Source: Pseudomonadota bacterium
GTDB taxonomy: Bacteria > Pseudomonadota > Gammaproteobacteria > Burkholderiales > Thiobacillaceae
Reading direction: 5' to 3'
DNA: 64,000 nucleotides
NCBI GenBank assembly: GCA_021802555.1
Contig: JAJZRU010000013.1
Location: forward strand, 1-64,000
This document shows, piece by piece, positions 18,106-29,687 of the stretch; within the stretch, counting starts at the first letter, position 1; each line of letters opens with the position of its first letter. Made by a program: the position numbers and the translations under genes. A model generated the notes under the pieces. That model was not told the DNA's origin. It saw nothing but the letters and a program-made list of their open reading frames with translations, and did no database searches.

Positions 18106-19062
18106 ATGCCCCCTCATTACCACGACCACTCCGCGGCCGACCACAACCGCGCGCACCATCGCCACAGCCACGCGCATCGCACTTTCGCCTGGGCGCTCGT
18201 GCTGACGCTGAGCTTTTCCGTCGTCGAGGCCGCCGCCGGCTGGTGGGCCAATTCCCTCGCGCTGATGTCGGATGCCGGCCACATGCTCACCGACAGCTTG
18301 TCCCTGCTGCTCGCCGCCGTGGCGGCCTGGCTCGCGCGCAAGCCGCCCTCCGCGCGCCATTCCTACGGCCTGGCGCGCGCCGAGGTCTTGGCCGCGCTGG
18401 CCAACAGCCTGCTCATGCTGGCCATCGTGGCCTTCATCGTGTTCGAGGCATTGGAGCGTTTCCAGCGTCCGCCCCACGTCAACGGCGAGGTGGTCATGGG
18501 GGTGGCCTTCATCGGCCTGCTCATCAATCTCGGCATCGGCTGGCTGCTCGTGCGCGGCGAGGACAGCCTCAACCGCCGCGCCGCGCTCATCCACGTCGTC
18601 GGCGACGCCTTGGGCTCGGTGGCGGCGCTGGCCGCCGGCCTGGTCATTTATCTGACCGGCTGGATGCCCATCGACCCCATCCTTTCCGTCGTCGTCTCCC
18701 TGCTCATCCTCACCTCCACCATCAATCTGCTGAGGGAAGCCCTGCATGTCCTCATGGAAGGCGTACCGCGCGGGCTCGACCTCGACCAGGTGGGCGTCGC
18801 CCTGGCCAAGATCGAAGGCGTGCGCGAGGTGCACGATCTGCACATCTGGACCCTGGCGTCCGGCCAGGTCGCGCTTTCCGCTCATCTGAGCATCGCGCAT
18901 ATGGGCGAATGGCCGCGCATCCTGCACGGGGCGCGCCATCTGCTGCAGGACGATTTCGCCATCGGCCACGTCACCCTGCAGCCCGAAGCCGTCGAGCCGC
19001 AACCGCTCAAGCGCGGCGTCTACGCGCCCGCCCAGCACGGACAGCACGGCCATGCTCGCTGA
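18106..19062 (+). CDS. Cation diffusion facilitator (zinc-type efflux protein)
   Basis: This 318-residue inner-membrane protein has six predicted helices and the CDF metal-site pairs HxxxD: SDAGHMLTD in helix II and HVVGDALGS in helix V. Histidine-rich tails at both ends (HYHDHSAADHNRAHH and HGQHGHAR) suggest zinc or cobalt as substrate, as for ZitB/CzcD. The start is 1 base after the nagZ stop. The next gene begins inside its last codons (11-base overlap). Confidence 0.93.
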   Translation: MPPHYHDHSAADHNRAHHRHSHAHRTFAWALVLTLSFSVVEAAAGWWANSLALMSDAGHMLTDSLSLLLAAVAAWLARKPPSARHSYGLARAEVLAALANSLLMLAIVAFIVFEALERFQRPPHVNGEVVMGVAFIGLLINLGIGWLLVRGEDSLNRRAALIHVVGDALGSVAALAAGLVIYLTGWMPIDPILSVVVSLLILTSTINLLREALHVLMEGVPRGLDLDQVGVALAKIEGVREVHDLHIWTLASGQVALSAHLSIAHMGEWPRILHGARHLLQDDFAIGHVTLQPEAVEPQPLKRGVYAPAQHGQHGHAR

Positions 19063-19672
19063 CTGCCGCGCCTGCCCGCGCCTGGCCGGTTTCCTCGACG
19101 AGGTGCGCACGCGCCACCTGGACTACCATGCGCGCCCAGTCGCCCCCTTCGGCGACGCCGCGCCGCGCCTGCTGATCGTGGGCCTCGCCCCCGGCCTGCA
19201 CGGAGCCAACCGCACCGGCCGCCCATTCACCGGCGACCACGCAGGAATCCTGCTGTACCAGACGCTGCACGAATTCGGCTGGGCCAGCCGGCCGCATTCG
19301 GTAAGCCTGGACGACGGCCTCGAACTGCCCGGCTGCCGCATCACCAACGCGGTGAAATGCCTGCCCCCGGCGAACAAGCCGGAGCCCGTGGAAATCCGTC
19401 AGTGCAACGGCCATCTGCGCGCCGAACTGGACGGCCTGACCAGCACCACGGCCGTCCTCGCCCTGGGCCGCATCGCCCATCAGGCCGTGCTCATGGCGCT
19501 GGGTCTCAAGCCCGCGCAACACCCCTTCGCCCACGGCGCCGTGCATATCCTGCCCGACGGCAGGCGGCTCTACGACTCCTTCCACTGCTCCCGCTACAAT
19601 ACCCAGACGCGGCGCCTGACCGCGGACATGTTCCGCGCCGTGTTCGCGCGCATCCGATCCGACCTGGAGTAA
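19052..19672 (+). CDS. Uracil-DNA glycosylase, family 5 type (UdgB-like)
   Basis: The motif GLAPGLHGANRTGRPFTGDH is the active-site signature of family 5 uracil-DNA glycosylases, which lack the usual catalytic Asp/Asn of family 1. Cysteines suited to a 4Fe-4S cluster occur at the N-terminus (CRACPRL), in the middle (GCRITNAVKC) and near the end (FHCS). The 206-residue enzyme would remove uracil and hypoxanthine from DNA. It lies two genes upstream of uvrC, a small DNA-repair neighbourhood. Confidence 0.9.
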   Translation: MLADCRACPRLAGFLDEVRTRHLDYHARPVAPFGDAAPRLLIVGLAPGLHGANRTGRPFTGDHAGILLYQTLHEFGWASRPHSVSLDDGLELPGCRITNAVKCLPPANKPEPVEIRQCNGHLRAELDGLTSTTAVLALGRIAHQAVLMALGLKPAQHPFAHGAVHILPDGRRLYDSFHCSRYNTQTRRLTADMFRAVFARIRSDLE

Positions 19673-19675
19673 GCC

Positions 19676-19864
19676 ATGCCCGTCGTCACCATCAAGCTCG
19701 CCGGCAAACTGAGCCGGGCGCAGCGCAAGGCCATTGCCGAGGAAATCACTGCCACCCTGGAAAAACACGCCCACAAGCCGGCTTCATACACCTATATCGC
19801 GTTCGAGGAACTGCCCGACGAGAACTGGGCCATCGCCGGCAAGCTGCTGGACGAGGAGGCGTAA
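19676..19864 (+). CDS. 4-oxalocrotonate tautomerase family protein
   Basis: A 62-residue protein with proline directly after the initiator methionine (MPVVTIKLAGKLS), the catalytic base of this superfamily once methionine is removed. The length equals the minimal beta-alpha-beta subunit that assembles as a hexamer or trimer of dimers. The substrate is unknown. Its final codons (GACGAGGAGGCG) contain the AGGAGG that serves as ribosome binding site for uvrC. Confidence 0.85.
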   Translation: MPVVTIKLAGKLSRAQRKAIAEEITATLEKHAHKPASYTYIAFEELPDENWAIAGKLLDEEA

Positions 19865-19865
19865 G

Positions 19866-21659
19866 CTGTTCGACGCCACGGTCCTTCTTCAGTCCCTGCC
19901 CACCCTGCCCGGGGTGTACCGCATGCTCGATGCGGACGGGCAGATGCTGTACGTGGGCAAGGCCAAGGACCTGAAAAAGCGCGTCTCCAGCTATTTCCAG
20001 AAGACCGGCCACTCGCCCCGCATCAGCCTCATGCTCAAGCAGGTGGCGCAGGTGGAAACCACCGTCACGCGCACCGAGGCCGAGGCCCTGATCCTGGAAA
20101 ACAACCTCATCAAAGGGCTCAATCCGCGCTTCAACATCCTGTTCCGCGACGACAAGTCCTACCCCTACGCCCAGCTCACCGGCCACGCTTTCCCGCGCCT
20201 GGCCTATTACCGCGGGCCGCTCGCCAAGCCGCACCAGTATTTCGGCCCCTATCCCAACGCCTGGGCGGCCAAGCAGGCCATCACCCTCATTCAGCGCGTG
20301 TTCCGCCTGCGCACCTGCGAGGATACGGTGTTCAGCAACCGCTCGCGCCCCTGTTTGCTGTACCAGATCCGGCGCTGCAGCGGCCCTTGCGCGGGACTCA
20401 TCAGCGCCGAGGATTACGCGCGCGACGTACACAATGCCGCCCTGCTGCTGCAGGGCAAGGACAACGAACTCACGGCTGCCCTCACCCAGCGCATGGGCGA
20501 ACTGGCCGAACGGCAAGAGTATGAGGAGGCCGCCGCGCTGCGCGACCAGATCCGCAGCCTGGCACGCGTGGGCGAGCAACAGTTCGTCGATGCCGGGCGC
20601 GCCACCGATGCCGACGTTGTCGCCTGCGTAGTCGAACAAGGCCTGCTCGCGGTCAACCTCACCATGATCCGGAGTGGGCGCCATCTGGGCGATCGTACCT
20701 TCTTCCCCGAACACGGCGAAGGCTTCAGCCCGGCCGAGGCGCTGGCCGCCTTTCTGGCCCAGCACTATCCCGACCAACGCATCCCACCCACCATCCTGCT
20801 CAACCAGGCCATCGACGGCGCCGAGCTGGAAGCCCTACTGAGCGAGCAGGCCGGCCATGCCGTGCGCCTGGTGACGCAAACCAGCGGCGCGCGCCGGGTC
20901 TGGGTGGCCATGGCGGAAAAGAACGCACGCCTGGCGGCGCAGCGGCGCCTGCTGGACAAATCCAGCCAGAATCAGCGCCTGGAGAAATTGCGCGAGGCGC
21001 TCGACCTGCCCGCGGCCAGCCGCATCGAGTGCTTCGACATCAGCCACACCCTGGGCGAGGCCACCGTAGCGAGCTGCGTCGCCTTCGACGGCGAAGCGAT
21101 GCGCAAGAGCGACTACCGCCGCTACAACATCACAGGCATCACGCCCGGCGACGACTATGCCGCCATGGCCGAGGCGCTCGCGCGCCGCTACCGCCACACG
21201 GTCATTGGAGATGGCCCGCGCCCGGACCTCGTGCTCATCGACGGTGGCAAGGGCCAGCTCGGGCGCGCCGTCGCGGTGATGGCGGAGCTCGGCCTGAACG
21301 ACATCGCGCTGGTGGGCGTCGCCAAGGGCGAGGAACGCAAGCCCGGCCTGGAAACCCTGGTGTTTCCCGACGGGCGCGAGCTGCATCTGGCGAGCGACAA
21401 TCCGGGCTTCCATCTCATTCAGGCCATCCGCGACGAAGCCCATCGCTTCGCCATTACCGGGCACCGCGCGCGGCGCGCGAAAGCGCGCCTGAGCTCGACC
21501 CTGGAAGACATTCCCGGCATCGGCCCCAAGCGCCGCAAGGCCTTGCTGGAACGCTTCGGCGGCCTGCAAGGCGTCAAGCGCGCAGGCGTCGAAGAACTTG
21601 CGCGCGCACCGGGCATCAGCCGAGAATTGGCGGAAAAAATCTACCAGAGCCTGCACTGA
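19866..21659 (+). CDS. uvrC: Excinuclease ABC subunit C, apparently initiated at CTG
   Basis: UvrC makes both incisions in nucleotide excision repair. The 597-residue protein shows the GIY-YIG domain (LPGVYRML and MLYVGKAKDLKKRVSSYF), the UVR motif for UvrB contact (about residues 200-235), the RNase H-like second nuclease (ECFDISHT, LVLIDGGKGQLG), and C-terminal helix-hairpin-helix repeats (IPGIGPKRRKALLERFGG). Family proteins begin with M-F-D followed by a segment like LLxxLPxLPGVYRM. The only codon at that position is CTG (19866-19868), and it sits 6 bases after AGGAGG. No ATG, GTG or TTG lies in frame nearby except a GTG inside the GIY-YIG motif. Confidence 0.93.
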   Translation: MFDATVLLQSLPTLPGVYRMLDADGQMLYVGKAKDLKKRVSSYFQKTGHSPRISLMLKQVAQVETTVTRTEAEALILENNLIKGLNPRFNILFRDDKSYPYAQLTGHAFPRLAYYRGPLAKPHQYFGPYPNAWAAKQAITLIQRVFRLRTCEDTVFSNRSRPCLLYQIRRCSGPCAGLISAEDYARDVHNAALLLQGKDNELTAALTQRMGELAERQEYEEAAALRDQIRSLARVGEQQFVDAGRATDADVVACVVEQGLLAVNLTMIRSGRHLGDRTFFPEHGEGFSPAEALAAFLAQHYPDQRIPPTILLNQAIDGAELEALLSEQAGHAVRLVTQTSGARRVWVAMAEKNARLAAQRRLLDKSSQNQRLEKLREALDLPAASRIECFDISHTLGEATVASCVAFDGEAMRKSDYRRYNITGITPGDDYAAMAEALARRYRHTVIGDGPRPDLVLIDGGKGQLGRAVAVMAELGLNDIALVGVAKGEERKPGLETLVFPDGRELHLASDNPGFHLIQAIRDEAHRFAITGHRARRAKARLSSTLEDIPGIGPKRRKALLERFGGLQGVKRAGVEELARAPGISRELAEKIYQSLH

Positions 21660-22234
21660 TGCCCTTCAACCTGCCCAATCTGCTCACCTGGCTGCGCATC
21701 CTGCTGATCCCCCTGCTGGTGGGCGTGTATTACCTGCCGACCGGCTGGCTGGGCGCAGGCAGCGCCAATCTGTGGGCGGCGGCCTTCTTCGTCCTGGCGT
21801 CGATCACCGACTGGCTGGACGGCTGGCTGGCGCGCCGGCTCGGGCAGACCTCGGCCTTCGGCGCCTTTCTCGATCCGGTCGCCGACAAGCTCATGGTGGC
21901 GGCCGCGCTCATCGTCCTGGTCGATCTGCACCGCGCGCCCGCCGTCATCGCCCTCATCATCATCGGACGCGAGATCGCCATCTCCGCCCTGCGCGAATGG
22001 ATGGCCAAGATGGGCAAATCCGCCAGCGTGGCGGTGAGCTTCGTGGGCAAGCTCAAGACCGCCTCCCAGATGATCGCCATCGCCCTGCTGCTCTACCACG
22101 CCCCGCTCGCCGGCCTGCCCGTCGCCGCCGCCGGGACCGTGCTGCTGATGCTGGCCGCCGTGCTCACGCTCGTGTCCATGGCCTATTACCTCTACCTGGC
22201 GGCGCGCGCCTGGTCGGAACCGCGCCCAGGTTGA
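21659..22234 (+). CDS. pgsA: CDP-diacylglycerol-glycerol-3-phosphate 3-phosphatidyltransferase
   Basis: PgsA makes phosphatidylglycerophosphate, the first committed step to phosphatidylglycerol and cardiolipin. The CDP-alcohol phosphotransferase motif DG(x)2AR(x)8G(x)3D(x)3D is present in DWLDGWLARRLGQTSAFGAF followed by LDPVADK. Several membrane helices fill the 191-residue chain. The ATG overlaps the uvrC stop by 1 base, the common uvrC-pgsA pair. Two tRNA genes follow. Confidence 0.96.
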   Translation: MPFNLPNLLTWLRILLIPLLVGVYYLPTGWLGAGSANLWAAAFFVLASITDWLDGWLARRLGQTSAFGAFLDPVADKLMVAAALIVLVDLHRAPAVIALIIIGREIAISALREWMAKMGKSASVAVSFVGKLKTASQMIAIALLLYHAPLAGLPVAAAGTVLLMLAAVLTLVSMAYYLYLAARAWSEPRPG

Positions 22235-22273: not shown

Positions 22274-22349
22274 GCGGGAATAGCTCAGTTGGTAGAGCGC
22301 AACCTTGCCAAGGTTGAGGTCGCGAGTTCGAGACTCGTTTCCCGCTCCA
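22274..22349 (+). tRNA. tRNA-Gly (GCC)
   Basis: A 76-base cloverleaf starts GCGGGAATAGCTC and ends with an encoded CCA. Acceptor arms GCGGGAA/TTCCCGC pair, the anticodon stem AACCTT-GCC-AAGGTT presents GCC, and the T-loop TTCGAGA is standard. It lies 39 bases after pgsA. Confidence 0.97.
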
Positions 22350-22355
22350 ATTACC

Positions 22356-22381
22356 GGGGAAAGCGCACGCTTTCCCCTTTT
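22356..22381 (+). terminator. Rho-independent terminator after tRNA-Gly
   Basis: A perfect 9-bp stem GGGGAAAGC/GCTTTCCCC with a 4-base loop is followed directly by TTTT. It sits 6 bases after the tRNA-Gly gene and 36 bases before tRNA-Cys, so the two tRNAs may be separate or only partly linked transcripts. Confidence 0.8.
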
Positions 22382-22416
22382 CGTTGCGGGCTGGCGCCCG
22401 GCACGAAACCGTTTGC

Positions 22417-22490
22417 GGCGGGGTAGCAAAGTGGTTATGCAGCGGCCTGCAAAGCCGTCTACGCCGGTTCGATTCCGACCCCCGCCTCCA
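22417..22490 (+). tRNA. tRNA-Cys (GCA)
   Basis: A 74-base cloverleaf with acceptor arms GGCGGGG/CCCCGCC, anticodon loop CTGCAAA giving GCA, T-loop TTCGATT and encoded CCA. A tRNA-Leu that often follows in betaproteobacteria is not present. Instead an integrase 5' stub follows about 110 bases downstream. Confidence 0.96.
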
Positions 22491-22603
22491 TCCGCCCCTC
22501 CGCCTTCATCCGCAGCAATCCTCCGGAAAACGCCCACCTCAAGCGTCCCCCTGGGGCATCATTTGGGGTTCTTCGATGCTCCCCGCCGATGCCCAAACAT
22601 CGT

Positions 22604-22654
22604 GATGTCGGATACGAAGGTGCGAGCACTAAAGCCCAAGGGAAAGCCTTACAA
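22604..22654 (+). pseudogene. 5' stub of a tyrosine integrase next to tRNA-Cys
   Basis: An ATG at 22604 reads MSDTKVRALKPKGKPYK, the canonical first 17 residues of P4-type integrases (Arm DNA-binding domain). The frame then diverges within a few codons and stops at 22685. An integrase beginning just after a tRNA 3' end is the normal arrangement of an integrated element, so this is likely the scar of a lost island. Nothing else of the element is recognised before the toxin-antitoxin genes. Confidence 0.6.
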
Positions 22655-22681
22655 GGGGCATCTGCAGTACCGTCCCCCCGA

Positions 22682-22710
22682 TTGACAATATGTAGCCGTC
22701 AGACTACAGT
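22682..22710 (+). promoter_or_regulatory. Toxin-antitoxin promoter with overlapping inverted repeat
   Basis: A consensus TTGACA (22682-22687) and TACAGT (22705-22710) are 17 bases apart. Between and over them TGTAG (22691-22695) and CTACA (22704-22708) form an inverted repeat with an 8-base spacer, a likely operator for autorepression by the antitoxin. Transcription should start at about 22716-22717, which is the toxin's GTG codon itself. Confidence 0.65.
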
Positions 22711-22716
22711 TGTCTT

Positions 22717-23013
22717 GTGATCGAGATTCGGAAGACCGACGTTTTTGCCCAATGGCTCGACGCATTGCGGGACATTCGAGCTCGCGCGAAAGTTCAAGCC
22801 AGGATCGAGCGTCTTGCAGCCGGAAACCCGGGCGATGCCGAGCCTGTCGGCGAAGGTGTTTCTGAGTTGCGAATCGACTACGGCCCCGGTTATCGGGTGT
22901 ACTTCAAACAGCGAGGGCGTGAACTGATCATTCTTCTGGCAGGAGGTGACAAGAACACCCAAGCCGAGGACATCAAGGCAGCCATACGTCTCGCTCGAAA
23001 TCTGTCGGAGTAG
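22717..23013 (+). CDS. HigB/RelE-type addiction module toxin
   Basis: The 98-residue protein begins MIEIRKTDVFAQWLDALRDI and contains SELRIDYGPGYRVYF and ILLAGGDKNTQAEDI, the signatures of the small RelE/ParE-superfamily 'addiction module killer' proteins paired with HTH antitoxins. The start is GTG with no ribosome binding site in front. Toxin precedes antitoxin, as in HigBA. By family it would be a ribosome-dependent mRNA nuclease, but that was not shown here. Confidence 0.9.
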   Translation: MIEIRKTDVFAQWLDALRDIRARAKVQARIERLAAGNPGDAEPVGEGVSELRIDYGPGYRVYFKQRGRELIILLAGGDKNTQAEDIKAAIRLARNLSE

Positions 23014-23018
23014 CCGCC

Positions 23019-23318
23019 ATGACCAAAACCACCACCACTCGTTATGACGTTGCGGAGCACCTCAGAACCCCGGAGGAAATGGCCGCCTATCTCGAAGCCT
23101 GTCTTGAAGAGGCAGACGGCGATGCCGCCTTTATCGCCAAGGCGCTTGGCGACATCGCGCGTGCCAAAGGCATGGCCCAAGTGGCCAGGGATGCCGGCTT
23201 GTCCCGCGAAAGCCTCTACAAGGCGCTTTCCGGTGAGCGCAGCCCCGGCTTTGACACCATACTCAAGGTCATCGGCGCTCTTGGGCTCAAGCTCCATGCA
23301 GAGGCCAGTCACACCTGA
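23019..23318 (+). CDS. HigA-like antitoxin with helix-turn-helix
   Basis: This 99-residue protein starts 5 bases after the toxin. It contains a Cro/XRE-like helix-turn-helix at [20 protein letters not shown], followed by [18 protein letters not shown], the usual core of 'addiction module antidote' proteins. The N-terminal half ([19 protein letters not shown]) is the typical toxin-binding extension. It would neutralise the toxin and repress the promoter at 22682. Confidence 0.9.
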
Positions 23319-24790: not shown

Positions 24791-24793
24791 GTG

Positions 24794-24849
24794 AAGGGGG
24801 AAGGGGGAAGGGGGAAGGGGGAAGGGGGAAGGGGGAAGGGGGAAGGGAG
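24794..24849. repeat. 7-bp simple sequence repeat, (AAGGGGG)x7 plus one degenerate unit
   Basis: Seven perfect copies of AAGGGGG (24794-24842) and one variant AAGGGAG begin 3 bases after the glyA stop and end just before the start of the four-helix-bundle gene. The unit length is not a multiple of three and the tract is an obvious slippage site. A degenerate mirror copy (CCCTTCC units) lies on the far side of that gene. Confidence 0.95.
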
Positions 24850-24853
24850 GAAC

Positions 24854-25210
24854 GTGAGGCGAAATCATCGCTCACTCGATGCCTGGCGACAGGCAATGGA
24901 TCTAGTAATCTTGGTTTACCGGGCCACTTCAAGATTCCCCCAGAGTGAACAGTATGGGCTGACGAGCCAGTTGCGACGCGCGGCGGTGTCCGTTCCCGCC
25001 AATATCGCCGAAGGTGCGGCCCGTAATGGAAGCAAGGAATTTTTGCACTTTCTCGGCATCGCGAGCGGCTCGTTATCGGAACTGGATACGCTGACCGACT
25101 TATCCAGACAACTTGGCTATTTGGAAAACCCGGAGGAACTAGATGGGAAGATTGATAATGTATCTGGATTGGTAATGGGACTTGCGTCGTCCATACGCCG
25201 CAAGCTCTGA
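24854..25210 (+). CDS. Four-helix-bundle protein (23S rRNA intervening-sequence family)
   Basis: The 118-residue product has the hallmarks of this family: [40 protein letters not shown] and a C-terminal helix with [18 protein letters not shown]. Members occur inside rRNA intervening sequences, beside diversity-generating retroelements (Avd) or alone. Their cellular role when alone is unknown. I chose GTG at 24854 because the upstream in-frame GTG at 24791 would translate the repeat. The last purine-rich repeat units may act as ribosome binding site. Its GC content is visibly lower than that of glyA and nrdR, which suggests transfer. Confidence 0.85.
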
Positions 25211-25211
25211 A

Positions 25212-25246
25212 CCCTTCCCCCTTCTCCCTTCCCCCTTCCCTTCTCA
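25212..25246. repeat. Degenerate inverted copy of the AAGGGGG repeat
   Basis: Pyrimidine-rich units (CCCTTCC, CCCTTCT) directly follow the four-helix-bundle gene and run up to the nrdR start codon. They are the reverse complement of the repeat at 24794-24849, so the gene is bracketed by long imperfect inverted repeats. They leave nrdR without a purine-rich ribosome binding site. Confidence 0.85.
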
Positions 25247-28742: not shown

Positions 28743-29687
28743 TTGAAGCTGAAAACCCTGGCCATCTTCGCCATCCTGTTCGCTGCCCCGCGGGCGTACG
28801 CCAATATCGACATCCAATTCGACTTCAGCTACGACACCCGTTATTTCTTCAATTCGAACTCGGCTGCGCTCAGCGCATTGGACGCTGCGGCCTCGGTATT
28901 CGAAACCCGTTTCACGGACTCACTCTCCGCCATCAACTCCGGCGGCGGCAACGACTTCTCGACCGAATTTTTCAATCCGGCGAACCCCAGTGGAGGCAAC
29001 ATCACGCTGTCCAACCAAAGCATCGGCATGAACGTGATTCGCGTCTATGCCGGCGGGGCCGATCTGGGGGGAAACACGCTGGGCGTCGGCGGCCCCGGGG
29101 GGTATAGCTGCTCCGGCTTCGGCAATTTCTGCGGCGCGTCCAATCTCGACCGCGGACAGGGCGCGACCAGCGGCGCAAACGCAGTGGACTTCGCCCCGTG
29201 GGGCGGCTCCCTCGCTTTCGACGACACGGCATCCACTAAATGGAATTTCAGCGCGGCGCAGGGTCCGTCTTCCGGCCAATCCGATTTCTATTCGGTGGCG
29301 GTGCATGAACTGGGCCACTTGCTCGGCTTTGGCACGGCCGACTCGTTTGACGCCTCAGTCAGCGGCAGCGGCTATTTCACGGGGGCGCACGCGGAGGCTG
29401 CCTACGGCGGGAGCCCCGTGCCCTTGTACACGACGGACAAAGCGCATTGGGCGGAAGGCGTCATGAGCACGGTCAACGGCACGCCGCAGGAAGCGGCCAT
29501 GGACCCCACGTTGACCATCGGCCAGCGCAAGTATTTCACCGCGCTGGACTACGCCGCCATGAAGGACATCGGCTGGCAGGTATCGGCGGTGCCGGAAGCG
29601 GAGACCTGGGTGATGATGCTGTCCGCGCTGGGGCTGCTCGCCCTGGCGGCCCGGCGCCGCGCCGCGCCGGCCGCGCGAACCACCTGA
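28743..29687 (+). CDS. PEP-CTERM protein with metalloprotease-like motif
   Basis: The 314-residue secreted protein has a signal peptide (MKLKTLAIFAILFAAPRAYA), a zinc-peptidase motif HELGHLLGFGTADSFD near residue 190, and a C-terminal PEP-CTERM tail (VPEAETWVMMLSALGLLALA then AARRR). In such tails an exosortase cleaves near the PEP-like motif, here PEA. It resembles the predicted PEP-CTERM metalloproteases of biofilm-forming Proteobacteria. The third zinc ligand is not in the usual metzincin position. The start is TTG 6 bases after AGGAG. A weak promoter TTGTCA - 17 - TAAAGT may lie at 28653-28681. Confidence 0.82.
   Translation: MKLKTLAIFAILFAAPRAYANIDIQFDFSYDTRYFFNSNSAALSALDAAASVFETRFTDSLSAINSGGGNDFSTEFFNPANPSGGNITLSNQSIGMNVIRVYAGGADLGGNTLGVGGPGGYSCSGFGNFCGASNLDRGQGATSGANAVDFAPWGGSLAFDDTASTKWNFSAAQGPSSGQSDFYSVAVHELGHLLGFGTADSFDASVSGSGYFTGAHAEAAYGGSPVPLYTTDKAHWAEGVMSTVNGTPQEAAMDPTLTIGQRKYFTALDYAAMKDIGWQVSAVPEAETWVMMLSALGLLALAARRRAAPAARTT

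Follow-up and report, generated by a model that had tools for sequence, protein, structure and literature searches.

The window, which is the whole 64,000-nucleotide stretch of DNA that was analysed, comes from the genome of an uncultured member of the Thiobacillaceae (designated G000) that is available as an assembly of 48 contigs. The locus considered here consists of five genes that run in the same direction, in the order cation-efflux gene, uracil-DNA-glycosylase-superfamily gene, tautomerase-like gene, uvrC and pgsA, of which the last four are positioned as follows.

19052..19672, plus strand: uracil-DNA-glycosylase-superfamily gene (PF03167, 92.3 bits against a cut-off of 24.3)
19676..19864, plus strand: tautomerase-like gene, directly 5' of uvrC (PF01361, 46.6 bits against a cut-off of 22)
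19866..21659, plus strand: uvrC, 597 codons plus stop
21659..22234, plus strand: pgsA (TIGR00560, 173.8 bits against a cut-off of 109.1), with an ATG that begins on the final base of the uvrC stop codon

In a profile search the tautomerase-like gene scored under the NCBIfam cut-offs. The uvrC frame, read from a CTG at 19866, comprises 597 codons with no internal stop, and its product belongs to the UvrC family, as judged by a whole-protein match to TIGR00194 of 593.8 bits against a cut-off of 285.45. Similarly, the GIY-YIG, UVR, RNase H-like and HhH domains that make up UvrC were all detected above their Pfam cut-offs. The features that bear on where translation of this gene begins are listed below, with codons numbered from the P of PGVYR, such that CTG 19866 is codon -14.

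19734..19736, plus strand: TTG at codon -58, the closest canonical start in frame on the 5' side; rejected
19853..19886, plus strand: weak predicted hairpin in which AGGAGG pairs with uvrC codons and the CTG lies in the loop
19854..19859, plus strand: AGGAGG, putative Shine-Dalgarno (SD) sequence within the last tautomerase codons
19866..19868, plus strand: CTG, putative uvrC start codon, at the position where relatives start and the same in a second species of the genus
19914..19916, plus strand: GTG encoding the V of GVY; rejected as start
19923..19925, plus strand: ATG encoding the M of GVYRM; rejected as start

The original prediction placed the CTG six bases past a perfect AGGAGG within the final tautomerase codons, and these coordinates recheck correctly. 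The AGGAGG also constitutes two glutamate codons, the tautomerase stop codon (TAA) occupies 19862-19864, and a single base separates it from the CTG. It should be emphasized that the window contains 40 copies of AGGAGG where 27.5 are expected, and that 4 of 100 shuffles reach 40. A scan of the window for SD-like motifs followed by any codon from which a long frame opens returned one case with CTG, at 727 on the minus strand, in a frame that by eye is nuoL; the scan demanded that there be no upstream canonical start, and uvrC, with its TTG at -58, was thus absent from it. An SD sequence plus CTG was rejected as sufficient evidence by itself, as the nuoL-like frame displays the same pattern. AGGAGG alone is within chance, and the case for a CTG start rests on homology and conservation.

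Start codons were compared across the family and the order. The family search matched 109 of 117 genomes, and start regions were read in 106, two of which are from this genus; the set leaves out G015 and G110, whose matches are without the N-terminus, and G016, whose sole match is short and weak. A canonical start codon lies between -12 and -24 in 100 of the 104 family loci from other genera; of the remaining four, three have one at -32, -38 or -46, and the last is cut off by the end of its contig. Of the 54 loci in the family's largest genus, 44 have ATG, GTG or TTG exactly at -14 and nine have TTG at -15. None of the 104 loci has CTG at -14. One locus in another genus of the family (L154, genome G005) has a uvrC without a canonical start from -12 to -45, its nearest candidates being a GTG at -46 and a CTG at -34. 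The order search matched 387 of 399 genomes, and 43 loci outside the family, among the matches listed, were read; these are the listed matches that align from residue 1, which biases the set towards a start-like residue at codon -14. Codon -14 in these 43 loci is ATG in 27, TTG in six and GTG in five, and the other five have another codon at -14 and a canonical start at -18; among these listed matches from other families CTG was not found at -14. In all of the best 80 of 137 loci from genome contigs, the closest canonical start beyond -8 falls at -8 to -33. Since the motif search in relatives demanded a GVY-like pattern, conservation of the GVY motif is not counted as evidence. A close parallel is the uvrC of Sulfuricella sp. 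(L004, apparently the same contig as L204), in which the tautomerase stop, one base, the start codon and TTC GAY follow one another with the start at the same position; in contrast with the CTG and AGGAGG found here, that gene starts with TTG and has no SD match of at least four bases. The starts of the relatives, together with the alignment to L004, indicate that the CTG stands where orthologues start. Comparison with orthologues, which the original prediction had proposed, thus returned ATG, TTG or GTG at the homologous codon in relatives and CTG in the second species of the genus.

Three genomes of the genus were examined, the source genome included, and two of them have a uvrC match, the other one being that of the second species (G002). 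Around the junction the two are equal at 1758 of 1878 bases (93.6%), and G002 has the same CTG, AGGAGG, spacing and stop-to-start arrangement as G000 despite the 120 differing bases. Between TTG 19734 and the CTG five codons are changed in each frame; four of the five are silent in the tautomerase frame and one of the five in the uvrC frame. Two of the three changed codons between the CTG and GTG 19914 are silent for uvrC, as are 14 of the 15 after GTG 19914. Constraint, in these small numbers, switches from the tautomerase to the uvrC frame at the CTG. Conservation of the CTG in only two genomes of one genus may represent a single event.

Translation of uvrC thus very probably starts at the CTG in both G000 and the second species, as judged from the sequences compared. 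Taken jointly, the explanation that we consider highly probable is that CTG 19866 is the start codon, that it is presumably decoded as formyl-methionine, that an SD interaction holds the ribosome there and that a large part of initiation probably occurs by reinitiation. In this scheme the CTG would presumably be read by the ordinary initiator tRNA, giving MFDATVLLQSLPTLPGVYRM, with (M)FDATVLLQSLPTLPGVYR the N-terminal UvrC sequence expected; the AGGAGG six bases upstream would hold the ribosome in place, and ribosomes that have just completed the tautomerase would probably reinitiate at the CTG. The position of the start is supported by the comparison of genomes; the use of methionine, the use of the SD sequence, reinitiation and any effect on the UvrC level are what we infer.

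An SD match was defined as at least four bases at a spacing of 4-11. Of the 101 relatives whose canonical start falls between -12 and -24, namely L004 and 100 family loci, 95 lack such a match, four have a four-base match and two a five-base match; the match in the uvrC described here is longer than in any of them. In the 43 order loci among the matches listed there is no match in 35, a four-base match in five, a five-base match in two and AGGAGG, at a spacing of 11, in one. The original prediction added that a CTG start would keep UvrC levels low, a proposal for which the sequences give no support. The strong SD sequence may offset the weak CTG codon, and its length relative to the 101 relatives points to compensation rather than to a low level of UvrC. 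As these six bases also belong to a pair of glutamate codons, however, their occurrence beside a weak codon in one lineage may be chance. The anti-SD sequence is assumed, since a search of the assembly with one exact pattern for the 3' end of the 16S rRNA found no match. A search for the initiator tRNA gene returned one exact and four one-mismatch matches; the stem, read in the exact match (the only one in the genome), is a normal GGG/CCC anticodon stem. The idea that a relaxed initiator tRNA of the M1 kind brought about the CTG start is accordingly unsupported; the likely aids to initiation are the AGGAGG and the termination one base upstream.

The layout of the junction (TAA, one base, CTG), which is the same in G002, is that of a coupled pair, and the tautomerase and uvrC are likely to be translationally coupled. 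Since a single base separates the tautomerase stop from the CTG, reinitiation probably accounts for a large share of uvrC initiation. In a stricter version of this proposal, nearly all UvrC would come from ribosomes arriving from the tautomerase, the genus having fixed the CTG together with a gained AGGAGG and the adjacent stop; independent initiation would then be blocked by the weak codon and by a hairpin that covers the SD sequence. We regard this as possible but unlikely. The predicted fold hides the SD sequence in G000 and does so less clearly in G002: its pairing was equally tight in 13 of 500 synonymous recodings in G000 and in 86 of 500 in G002, while the CTG is 0.88 unpaired in the predicted fold of G000 and 0.015 unpaired, and thus paired, in that of G002. 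The overall fold is ordinary in G000, where 325 of 500 recodings were at least as stable (z = -0.64), and stronger in G002 (21 of 500; z = -2.15). A conserved hairpin that hides the SD sequence is not established, as the predicted structures differ between the two species.

The other explanations place the start elsewhere or remove the need for it. The original prediction held that no ATG, GTG or TTG exists in frame at a sensible position. Indeed none occurs from -12 to -57 in either genome of the genus, leaving no workable canonical start in frame, and the TTG at 19734 (codon -58), which had been overlooked, is not a sensible start. The prediction also named the GTG in the GIY-YIG motif as the only nearby alternative; GTG 19914 does exist, but ATG 19923 had been missed, an omission that leaves the conclusion unchanged. 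Translation from either of these two in-frame canonical codons would yield a shortened UvrC, and the second has in its favour that ATG is generally the strongest start codon. We nevertheless consider a downstream start improbable. An SD match was found only at the CTG among the four candidate starts (the AGGAGG at six bases), neither the GTG nor the ATG having one of at least four bases. Furthermore, the residues before GVY resemble those of relatives and, from the few changes between the two species, are under constraint in the uvrC frame. Both starts would also cut into GVY, which the ATG would remove altogether. The motif tyrosine of the UvrC N-terminal domain has a catalytic role. The GVY of this uvrC aligns with the GCY or GVY of solved UvrC N-terminal domains, and one deposited UvrC chain, 1yd2, has F at the place where 1ycz has Y, in keeping with that role. 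The expectation that a GTG start would damage the GIY-YIG domain thus holds, as the residues before the motif tyrosine would go.

Initiation at TTG 19734, which would overlap the tautomerase gene and add 44 residues, is very improbable. In its favour, G000 and G002 both have this codon in frame, and uvrC reads open back to codon -66. The TTG, however, has no SD match of at least four bases, four of the five changed codons between it and the CTG alter the uvrC-frame protein while four of the five are silent for the tautomerase, and in many relatives an in-frame stop at -15 to -24 closes any such extension. There is equally little reason to believe that a sequencing or assembly error made CTG out of ATG, TTG or GTG: the 48-contig assembly makes an error possible, but G002, a separate genome that differs at 120 of 1878 bases, has the CTG as well, which renders error unlikely. 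Hardly any weight can be given to a +1 frameshift at the 3' end of the tautomerase gene that would yield a tautomerase-UvrC fusion with AGGAGG as a stimulator. The frameshift at prfB uses a CUU codon with an SD sequence three bases before it. At the tautomerase end there is an SD-like sequence just 5' of the stop and uvrC is in the +1 frame, but the last codon ahead of the stop is GCG in one species and GAG in the other, and in neither the CUU of prfB, the SD sequence overlaps that codon rather than lying three bases before it, and relatives start uvrC separately.

The CTG start therefore remains the preferred reading: relatives start there, the second species keeps it and there is no workable alternative. 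The original prediction described such starts as rare, with which the reported counts agree: switches to CUG were 2 of 61,358 from ancestral AUG, 1 of 5,080 from GUG and 1 of 2,468 from UUG (Belinky et al. 2017, PMC5622118). Like those cases, the present one is an annotated-type gene whose start has moved to CUG; the published figures, however, are counts over genome triplets, whereas here one named gene is followed through its family and order. The same source reports that non-AUG starts tend to accompany stronger SD sequences and that, in the results given there, SD switches and start-codon switches are not significantly associated. The strong SD sequence beside the CTG fits the former trend; the latter result leaves compensation unestablished for a single case. 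In Escherichia coli, CUG initiation complexes are reported to be less stable than those with AUG, GUG or UUG, and an M1-type change in the initiator tRNA to weaken discrimination against CUG (PMC11497404). The same codon would meet the initiator tRNA in the P site in uvrC, although the reported work used the M1 variant in vitro and the initiator tRNA here has a normal stem. In a mycobacterial selection with an SD sequence, CTG was reported at 0.03% and was not enriched (PMC4633059). The weakness of CUG complexes and the 0.03% in this selection count against the CTG-start reading, as does the predicted pairing of the SD sequence in G000. An E. coli N-terminal survey reports, for 688 database starts, 628 ATG, 50 GTG and 10 TTG (PMC13245402). 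We recognised no paper on this uvrC CTG start in the literature among the matches listed, which does not prove its absence.

CTG starts are thus known and very rare, and this uvrC, a conserved repair gene, adds a well-supported example. As a clean, natural and conserved CTG start in a widespread repair gene, it would serve to test how a strong SD sequence and nearby termination offset a poor codon. Such a uvrC is likely to be missed by gene-finding programs, and those limited to ATG, GTG and TTG are expected to trim the nuclease domain or to add a false extension.

Other features of the window lie 3' of pgsA. A toxin-antitoxin-like pair at 22696-23315, just 3' of tRNA-Gly and tRNA-Cys genes, combines a Gp49/RelE-type toxin-like member (PF05973, 30.5 bits against a cut-off of 23.9) with an addiction-module antidote (PF21716, 104.2 bits against a cut-off of 27). 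Beside tRNA-Cys, at about 22590-22685, the sequence by eye resembles the N-terminus of a phage-type integrase; the frame that contains this stretch (22296-22682) had no match in a Pfam search at E 0.1. A gene for a 23S-rRNA-intervening-sequence-type protein (24791-25240; PF05635, 115.9 bits, cut-off 33.8) is flanked by heptamer repeats, with 8.4 copies of GAAGGGG at 24793-24852 and 4.1 copies of CCCTTCC at 25212-25240. Finally, a gene at 28743 starts with TTG after AGGAG, and its product by eye appears to be exported, with a PEP-CTERM-like end.
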